DNA of 64,000 bases. It comes from Gemmatimonadaceae bacterium (GTDB lineage: Bacteria > Gemmatimonadota > Gemmatimonadetes > Gemmatimonadales > Gemmatimonadaceae). The stretch covers positions 186,001 through 250,000 of the forward strand of contig DASXKV010000033.1 in NCBI GenBank assembly GCA_036496605.1, given 5' to 3'. This document shows, piece by piece, positions 29,498 through 32,271 of the stretch (position 1 is the stretch's first letter; every line of letters begins with the position of its first letter). The position numbers were made by a program, and so were the translations under genes. Below the pieces are notes generated by a model. The model was not told where the DNA came from. It saw nothing but the letters and a program-made list of their open reading frames with translations, and did no database searches.

Positions 29498-30019
29498 CTA
29501 AGGATTCTTGACGTCCACGGTGTGGCCGATGATGCCCCCGAGGATGCCCCCAGCCGCCGCCCCGATGATAGCGCCCTTGAGCTTGTCGCGGCTCGTGCCG
29601 GCACCGAGGACGGCACCTGCGGCCGCGCCAATCACGGCGTCACGCTTGGTGTTGCGAACCGGCTCCGCCGGCTGCCGCGAGTACGTGCCCGAGGATCCCG
29701 ACGAGCGCGACACGCCGGTCGATGACCGCCGAGTCGCCGCCGGATATGGCGACCGGGCAACCGTCTGAACCTGCTGCGGATAGCCATATGGCGCATTCGC
29801 CGTCGGATACCCATTGGGATTCGCGGCGTACGGATTCATCCCCTGCTCCGTTGGCGACATGAACTGCTGCGGCTGATACGCCTGGACCTGGGACGCCAGA
29901 TTGAGGTCGTTTTTCAGCGCATCGTCTGCCGCGCTCCCCTTGCTGCCCCCGCACGCGACAAGGCTGATAGCCATCGCCGATGCCGACAGGAGCAGCCACA
30001 TCCTCGCGTGGTTGAACAT
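29498..30019 (-). CDS. glycine-zipper lipoprotein, 17 kDa antigen-like
   Basis: 173 residues. Lipoprotein signal with lipobox VAC (SLVACGG), a Gln/Pro/Tyr-rich low-complexity middle (NPYAANPNGYPTANAPYGYP), a Ser-rich stretch, and a C-terminal glycine-zipper double helix (AVIGAAAGAVLGAGTSRDKL and AIIGAAAGGILGGIIG). The glycine zipper resembles the rickettsial 17 kDa surface antigen family, so an outer-membrane location is likely. GGGGGGAG lies just upstream of ATG 30019. Monocistronic. Confidence 0.88.
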   Translation of the reverse strand: MFNHARMWLLLSASAMAISLVACGGSKGSAADDALKNDLNLASQVQAYQPQQFMSPTEQGMNPYAANPNGYPTANAPYGYPQQVQTVARSPYPAATRRSSTGVSRSSGSSGTYSRQPAEPVRNTKRDAVIGAAAGAVLGAGTSRDKLKGAIIGAAAGGILGGIIGHTVDVKNP

Positions 30020-30216
30020 TTCTCCCCCCCTTGGTTCGCCGTCCGAGATTCAGAGGGCAGGGCTTATTCCGGGAGTTAAGCAGCCGACGGATGGGTTAAT
30101 CATTGGTGGTGTCCCGCTGGAGGACGCCCTCGTGTCCTCGATGCGGGATATGGCAGACTACATTGTCAGGCGGCGCGGCTCGCGCGATTTTCACCCCTTC
30201 TCGACCGGAGCGTTCA

Positions 30217-30822
30217 ATGAACCAACGGGCAGTATCCCATGTGAGCGCCGTTGTTCTCGGCCTTACGCTGACCCTAACGGCAACCTCGCGGGCCGCTGCA
30301 CAACAGCCGGCTGCACCGGCGACACCAACGCCGGAAGTCGGTACGATGGCGCCCGACTTTGCCATCACCGGCGCCACCCGCTTCGGTCTGCTGCGTGACT
30401 CCATTCGGCTCGCGGACTTTCGCGGACAGACCGTCGTGCTCGCGTTCTTCTTTAAGGCGCGGACCAAAGGCTGAACGATCCAGATGGAGGCGTACCGTGA
30501 TCAGTACGCCACGCTCTTCAACAACGGCAAGAAAGTCGTCGTTCTGGGTGTGAGTGTCGATCCCGACACTACGCTCGCGAACTGGGCTCGCGAATCGAGC
30601 TTCCCCGTGCTGTTTGGCAGTGATCCGGGTCAGAAAGTTGGAAAGCTATATGGCTCGACCCGCGGCGACCTCGATACGCGGAATCTCTTCGTCATCGGAC
30701 CTGACGGGCGCATCGTTTTCAAGCAAGTTCCCGTGAATGTTCTCTCGCAGCAGGAGTACGCGGATCTTGCCAAGGCAGTGGCTCGCTCGGTCGGCACGAC
30801 GGTGACTGGAGCCACGAAGTAA
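30217..30822 (+). CDS. exported peroxiredoxin, probable selenoprotein (TGA = Sec86)
   Basis: 201 codons if TGA 30472-30474 is read as selenocysteine. ATG 30217 (GGAG upstream) begins a signal peptide ending TSRAAAQ. A peroxiredoxin fold of the BCP/AhpC-TSA group follows: VGTMAPDFAI, VVLAFFFKARTKG, then TGA, then TIQMEAYRDQY. Family members read K-A-x-T-x-G-C-T-x-Q here, so the stop replaces the peroxidatic Cys exactly. The same frame stays open to 30822 with good homology (VVVLGVSVDPDTTLANWA, LFVIGPDGRIVFK). No Cys is present in the mature chain, so no resolving Cys: a 1-Sec enzyme reducing peroxides in the periplasm. A SECIS-like hairpin follows. The alternative is a nonsense mutation. Confidence 0.85.
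30489..30510 (+). promoter_or_regulatory. bacterial SECIS-like hairpin
   Basis: A perfect 7-bp stem, GGCGTAC (30489-30495) with GTACGCC (30504-30510), encloses the loop CGTGATCA. It begins 14 bases after the in-frame TGA, and the loop begins 21 bases after it. Known bacterial SECIS elements have a short stem-loop 16-37 bases after the UGA with a G among the first two loop bases; here G is the second. It would recruit SelB with Sec-tRNA to the ribosome. Confidence 0.8.
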
Positions 30823-30850
30823 GCCAGTTCATTAGCGGTTACGCGACGAA

Positions 30851-30879
30851 CCGCCGGTGCGTCTGCCACCGGCGGTTTT
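30851..30879 (+). terminator. intrinsic terminator after the peroxiredoxin gene
   Basis: A 9-bp perfect stem CCGCCGGTG (30851-30859) / CACCGGCGG (30867-30875) with a 7-base loop is followed by TTTT. It ends the peroxiredoxin transcript 28 bases after its stop. Confidence 0.85.
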
Positions 30880-30903
30880 GCATTGCCGCACACTCTCTGT
30901 CAC

Positions 30904-32271
30904 GTGGCTATTCCTCGTAACCTGCTGATCCAACTCTACGACGCGGCCGTCGCGGGCGCGGCGACCGGCCCCGTGACGACGCGCGGCGTCGAGGCGCTCG
31001 GCATCGCACGCGAACGGCCGGTGTGGATCTTCTCGTTTGGCAAGGCGGCGCACGCGATGGCGGCCGCAGCCGTCGCATCGCTCCAGCGCGCACTCAACCA
31101 GATCGTCGGCGGCTTGATCGTGGCGCCTAACGAAGCGCCCGCTCCGTATGGCACGCTCGTTGTCATGCCTGGCGATCATCCTGCGCCTGGAGCTCGATCC
31201 TTTGCCGCCGCCCAGCGAATCGGCGAGGTCGCGTCGCGCATGAAAAGCGAGGACGTCGCACTCGTTCTCGTGAGTGGTGGCGCGTCGAGCCTCATCGCCG
31301 GACCCCTTCGCGGCATGACCGAAGGCGAGGTCACCGACCTCTTCGAGGTGCTGCTGGCTTCTGGCCTGGACATCGGCGCGGTCAACGCCGTCCGACGTCG
31401 CTTCACGCGATGGGGCGGCGGCCGCCTCGCGCTCGCTATCTCCCCCGCGGCCGCGCACTGCCTCGCCGTATCCGACGTCCCCGGTGACGATCTCGCGACC
31501 ATCGGCTCGGGGCCGAGCGTGCCCGATCCCTCGACGGCCGATGACGTCATCGAGATTCTCGAGGACGCCAAGCTACTCGACCGCATTCCGAAGTCGTTCC
31601 GCCGTTATGTGAACGACGTCTCGCGCGGCGCGGAGCCGGAGACACCGAAGGCCGGTCACCCGGCCTTCGCGCATGGAACCGCACGTGTCATCGCGAACAA
31701 TCGTGGCGCTCTGGATGCAGCCGCCGAGCGGGCGCGGTCGTTAGGCGCTGCCGCTGTCTACGTCGTCGACGCGCCGCTGGTCGGCGAAGCCGCGCCCGCC
31801 GGCGAGGCGATTGCGCGGTGGCTCCTCGAGCTTCGCGCCAAGGGCGCGCCGCCGGCAGGAACGCACGCTCCGCGAGTCGCAATCTGGGGTGGAGAGACGA
31901 CCGTCACCTTACGCGCAGCATCTGCACGTCGTGGCGCGACCCCCACTTCTGTCCCGCCGGGCGGACGCTGTCAGGAGCTCGCACTCGCGGTCGCCCGCAC
32001 TTTACATGAGGCCGGCGAGCGTGCGCGTGGAATCGCGCTGCTTGCTGCCGGCACCGACGGACGCGATGGGACGACGGATGCCGCCGGGGCATTCGTCGAC
32101 GCGACGACGTGGACCGCGATTCAGAATGCCGGTCTCGATGCGACGACGGCGCTTGCGCAGCACGCGTCGAATGGTGTGCTCGCTGCGATCAACGCACTCT
32201 ATTCTCCCGGTGCGACCGGCACGAACGTCATGGACGTGGTGATCGGCATAATCGACAGCCCCGATCAGTAG
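30904..32271 (+). CDS. glycerate 2-kinase (MOFRL family)
   Basis: About 455 residues of the GckA/TtuD-type glycerate kinase, which phosphorylates glycerate at C2 to feed lower glycolysis. The N-terminal domain shows FSFGKAAHAMA, LVSGGASSLI and SDVPGDDLATIGSGPSVPD; the C-terminal MOFRL domain shows GGETTVTL, GGRCQELAL and AAGTDGRDGTTDAAGAF. GTG 30904 is chosen since a TTG seven codons earlier lies close to the preceding terminator. First gene of a plus-strand run with aguB, aguA and a hydrolase. Confidence 0.93.
   Translation: MAIPRNLLIQLYDAAVAGAATGPVTTRGVEALGIARERPVWIFSFGKAAHAMAAAAVASLQRALNQIVGGLIVAPNEAPAPYGTLVVMPGDHPAPGARSFAAAQRIGEVASRMKSEDVALVLVSGGASSLIAGPLRGMTEGEVTDLFEVLLASGLDIGAVNAVRRRFTRWGGGRLALAISPAAAHCLAVSDVPGDDLATIGSGPSVPDPSTADDVIEILEDAKLLDRIPKSFRRYVNDVSRGAEPETPKAGHPAFAHGTARVIANNRGALDAAAERARSLGAAAVYVVDAPLVGEAAPAGEAIARWLLELRAKGAPPAGTHAPRVAIWGGETTVTLRAASARRGATPTSVPPGGRCQELALAVARTLHEAGERARGIALLAAGTDGRDGTTDAAGAFVDATTWTAIQNAGLDATTALAQHASNGVLAAINALYSPGATGTNVMDVVIGIIDSPDQ

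Follow-up and report, generated by a model that had tools for sequence, protein, structure and literature searches.

An exported peroxiredoxin gene in Gemmatimonadota with a predicted selenocysteine codon at the peroxidatic position

Does an in-frame TGA in a bacterial peroxiredoxin gene end the protein or encode its catalytic residue? The question is raised by positions 30217-30822 (forward strand) of the window, the 64,000-nucleotide stretch of Gemmatimonadaceae DNA analysed here. The original prediction had described two halves of one exported peroxiredoxin in a single frame, split by TGA 30472-30474 at the site of the catalytic Cys, and had proposed a probable selenoprotein. Translated with TGA as a residue, the gene runs from ATG to TAA and encodes 201 residues, with its single TGA as codon 86. 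One AhpC-TSA domain match (Pfam; residues 41-167, 81.7 bits against a cutoff of 26) runs across the TGA in this conceptual protein, and the split peroxiredoxin had thus been correctly recognized; a Redoxin match was also obtained (53 bits). In the solved peroxiredoxins 2ywn and 2cx3 the residue aligned with the TGA is the peroxidatic Cys, and 49 homologues have a Cys codon there, which bears out the proposed catalytic position. An AlphaFold2 model of the protein, built from a 4-row alignment, had a pLDDT of 37.5, too low for a comparison of folds. By every available computational test, 30217-30822 reads as a genuine selenoprotein gene in which TGA is no nonsense mutation, and its product is very probably an exported single-domain peroxiredoxin with selenocysteine (Sec) as the peroxidatic residue.

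Published lists of selenoprotein families include Sec-containing peroxiredoxin (Prx, TxxU motif; PMC1794560; PMC13188914), in keeping with the premise of the original prediction that Sec replaces the peroxidatic Cys in some bacterial Prx proteins. A Sec peroxiredoxin reported from Eubacterium acidaminophilum is cited in PMC13188914. The window gene is known in kind, being a member of an exported, phylum-wide branch of this Sec-Prx (TxxU) family. No earlier description was found of the exported, Pro-less, Cys-free form or of its lineage-wide spread, and no report of the window peroxiredoxin was found among open-access titles and abstracts on selenoproteins of Gemmatimonadetes or Gemmatimonadota.

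Codon 86 across the phylum

The gene was searched for in 149 related genomes and then in 298 genomes across the phylum Gemmatimonadota. Most genomes of the order proved to have a form with one in-frame TGA, which also occurs in other families of the class. Among the 157 Gemmatimonadota homologues extracted, the codon aligned to residue 86 was TGA in 108, TGC in 47 and TGT in two, with no other codon represented. The in-frame UGA is thus found where homologues have Cys, as is typical of bacterial selenoproteins, and the alternation of TGA with TGC or TGT for which the original prediction had proposed to look is present. The 108 TGA forms span identities of about 80% to about 50%, and in all of them the downstream half is intact, without the decay that had been named beforehand as a sign of a nonsense mutation. 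The same TGA arrangement is present in about a hundred related species. On a tree of the 157 proteins with residue 86 masked, nine changes between Sec and Cys are required, at least seven of them on well-supported branches. In the matches from G017 and G037, the flagged TGA falls elsewhere and codon 86 is TGC.

Decoding machinery and a candidate SECIS element

The genome from which the window derives encodes tRNA-Sec (78.4 bits, with ARAGORN making the same call), SelA (542 bits), SelB (361 bits, full length over model positions 1-580) and SelD (383 bits). The complete bacterial set for Sec decoding, whose absence would have argued against a selenoprotein, is therefore present in the same genome. 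The selD gene lies on contig C9 (1601-2641, reverse strand), directly upstream of tRNA-Sec. It has its own in-frame TGA, in RCAG-U-AAKLGPGDL, and SelD of this genome is predicted from its sequence to be a selenoprotein too; gene callers would give this selD a start that leaves out part of its 5' end.

The machinery also accompanies the TGA form across genomes. All 97 TGA-peroxiredoxin genomes, including that of the window, have tRNA-Sec and/or SelA (both in 82, tRNA-Sec alone in seven and SelA alone in eight, counting tRNA-Sec over 60 bits and including SelA fragments), while 28 of the 35 Cys-only genomes have neither. This association is strong when kinship is not corrected for (Fisher p = 2e-22). 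In a kinship-aware analysis, four to five of six independent contrasts agree and none disagree, with a median p of 0.125, the contrasts being too few for significance.

Immediately 3' of the UGA, where a bacterial selenoprotein gene should have its SECIS stem-loop, positions 30489-30510 (forward strand) can fold into a hairpin with the arms GGCGUAC and GUACGCC and the loop CGUGAUCA. It comprises 7 bp and starts 14 nt from the UGA. The inner six pairs are formed in 107 of 108 Sec genes against six of 49 Cys genes. The outer pair covaries: 90% are paired, mostly as G-C, C-G or T-A. Within the hairpin, synonymous positions of the Sec genes are frozen (GCG in 107/107, TAC in 108/108, CGT in 101/107 and GAT in 106/108), whereas the Cys homologues favour CGC and GAC at hairpin codons. 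Mean synonymous codon entropy is 0.28 bits over the seven hairpin codons compared with 1.20 bits over 42 other conserved positions (p = 0.0003), and Sec genes have lower folding energies than Cys genes when each is set against synonymous shuffles (p = 8e-6). With two mismatches allowed, the window genome contains a single copy of the motif, and an Rfam scan of 30000-31000 matched no family. The hairpin is a candidate bacterial SECIS element that has the look expected of one.

These observations bear on two readings in which no Sec would be inserted. Under table 11 the TGA truncates the frame, as would a nonsense mutation or a sequencing or assembly error in a Cys-peroxiredoxin gene. However, a TGA at the same codon in 108 of 157 homologues, with Cys codons in the rest, excludes chance, nonsense mutation or sequencing error as its source. 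The recurrence, from about 80% to about 50% identity, is in independent assemblies; further, the downstream half is conserved, the hairpin is frozen and the Sec machinery is present. This reading was rejected on the recurrence, and its probability is negligible. A near-cognate or ordinary tRNA, rather than Sec-tRNA, might instead read the UGA as another residue, given that residue 86 is deduced from DNA and not from sequenced protein. Against such readthrough, Cys codons are the sole replacements (49/49), Sec-decoding genes accompany the TGA form in 97 of 97 genomes and the hairpin, by the counts given above, is regarded as limited to TGA forms. On these three grounds readthrough by other tRNAs was also rejected, although it retains marginally more credit than a mutation or an error. 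Selenocysteine at codon 86 is the reading followed below, and the original proposal of a probable selenoprotein gains support from the machinery, the codon alternation and the preserved downstream half.

Active site, export and proposed chemistry

The canonical active-site motif of peroxiredoxins is PxxxT/SxxC. The window protein has Thr83 and U86 of this motif, with Phe79 (codon 30451-30453, forward strand) in place of Pro. As the strict motif is incomplete, membership among the peroxiredoxins is based instead on the AhpC-TSA domain, which scores over its curated cutoff, and on the Cys relatives. The Pro is kept in all 49 Cys relatives but in only 22 of the 108 Sec homologues, being absent from the other 86; Thr at -3 is kept in 104 of the 108, the remainder having Ser. 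Pro loss is associated with Sec (Fisher p = 9e-24, uncorrected for kinship) and involves at least eight changes on the tree; when kinship is considered, three to four of six independent contrasts agree and none disagree. As a hypothesis, it seems that Sec relaxed the need for the active-site Pro.

Residues 1-28 (30217-30300, forward strand) form a predicted signal peptide, a hydrophobic N-terminus with a cleavage site after AAA and before QQ. A hydrophobic N-terminal stretch is found in all 104 scorable Sec homologues, and a cleavage-like site of a small residue followed by Q, by a strict pattern, in 79 of them. The export claimed by the original prediction is thus consistent with the N-termini of the whole group. 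Its claim of a Cys-free chain likewise agrees with the conceptual protein, which contains no Cys and hence no resolving Cys, the 1-Sec counterpart of a 1-Cys peroxiredoxin. Further Cys is absent from 73 of 82 Sec homologues counted.

Several known systems resemble the window protein in part. With the Sec-Prx family (PF00578, TxxU), including PrxU of Eubacterium acidaminophilum (NF040737), it shares the AhpC/TSA domain, Sec at the peroxidatic position, Thr at -3 and a UGA followed by a stem-loop. Unlike that family, it has a signal-peptide-like N-terminus, no Cys and Phe for the motif Pro, and its score against the PrxU equivalog (45.2 bits) is well below the curated cutoff of 270. The best NCBIfam match was the BCP/PrxQ-type thioredoxin-dependent thiol peroxidase (NF006960; 49.9 bits, below the curated cutoff of 140), and the best solved relatives, 2ywn and 2cx3, are also of this type; the window protein differs in having Sec for Cys, predicted export and no resolving Cys. 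The Cys paralogues and orthologues of this exported family in Gemmatimonadota have a signal-peptide-like N-terminus and the same domain and are about 37-52% identical. They differ in the TGC or TGT codon, in keeping Pro (49/49) and in mostly lacking the hairpin (present in 6/49).

Because the chain has a signal-peptide-like N-terminus and no Cys, the window peroxiredoxin is likely a 1-Sec, externally reduced peroxidase, both the activity and the reductant being deduced from sequence. SelB carrying Sec-tRNA-Sec would bind the hairpin at 30489-30510 and decode the UGA at 30472 as Sec, and the signal peptide would export the precursor. Outside the cytoplasm, the selenolate may reduce peroxide and become a selenenic acid, as peroxiredoxin chemistry suggests. 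Without a second Cys a 1-Sec cycle is expected, in which a thiol or protein donor from outside would reduce the selenenic acid. Where a lineage lacks Sec decoding, TGC or TGT takes the place of the TGA and the hairpin is missing.

Two other possibilities concern what the selenoprotein does. Its main job may be other than peroxide removal: it might, for instance, sense redox state, oxidize thiols by forming a selenenylsulfide or reduce some other oxidised substrate. Loss of the Pro of PxxxTxxU in 86 of 108 Sec forms fits a changed chemistry, and no known donor is encoded nearby. In the conserved neighbourhood, a glycine-zipper lipoprotein-like gene (29498-30019, reverse strand) upstream and a glycerate-kinase-like gene (30883-32271, forward strand) downstream flank the peroxiredoxin in many relatives; this synteny is with two non-redox genes, and no redox partner was found among the conserved neighbours. 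Nevertheless, Thr (or Ser) at -3 and the remaining AhpC/TSA domain are kept, and the Cys relatives retain the full motif, so that a different main function appears unlikely. The UGA may also double as a selenium switch, giving an 85-residue fragment at low selenium and the full enzyme at high selenium. PMC4513850 reports incomplete, selenium-dependent recoding of 30-40% in vivo for a bacterial UGA/SECIS, which fits such a switch. This idea adds to the peroxidase reading and does not oppose it; we consider it possible, if rather doubtful. When the window was scanned by composition for more TGA-interrupted frames, two weak places emerged, neither with supporting evidence.

The selenocysteine trait in Gemmatimonadota

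A 2006 survey found FdhA in 89% of the organisms that use Sec, and no selenoproteome that lacked both FdhA and SelD; its authors attributed maintenance of the Sec trait to one or the other (PMC1794560). The window genome has no FdhA match that exceeds the cutoff. Strong FdhA matches (>600 bits) with one in-frame TGA were found in 33 of 149 genomes, and those of these 33 relatives are probably Sec-FdhA, as assigned from the TGA count and not from the TGA position. About six Sec-Prx genomes (G006, G047, G078, G099, G124 and G141) have no TGA in the FdhA or SelD match. As a lead, these may be genomes whose sole selenoprotein is the peroxiredoxin, judged among Prx, SelD and FdhA, and several Gemmatimonadota genomes are accordingly candidate exceptions to the FdhA-or-SelD rule (PMC1794560). 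For the exported Cys-free branch, we tentatively suggest that Sec allowed the loss of Pro and that Prx, rather than FdhA or SelD, goes most consistently with the Sec trait in Gemmatimonadota, a proposal to which we give slightly less than an even chance.

The gene is evidence of a selenoprotein that is widespread in a phylum of soil bacteria. No mention of Gemmatimonadota was found in the selenoproteome surveys searched; since the selenoproteome papers searched do not mention this peroxiredoxin, gene callers probably truncate or miss the gene there. Among the homologues, nature has switched repeatedly between Sec and Cys (at least seven times with good support), the SECIS-type consensus is clean and changes in the active site follow Sec; the series may be used to ask what an exported peroxidase gains from Sec. 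Multiple copies also occur within single genomes. In four genomes of one genus (G021, G046, G066 and G083; loci L076, L077, L083 and L088) a Cys copy adjoins the Sec copy, giving tandem pairs of exported peroxiredoxins, and another genome (G121) has two Sec-peroxiredoxin copies (L069 and L070) on different contigs.
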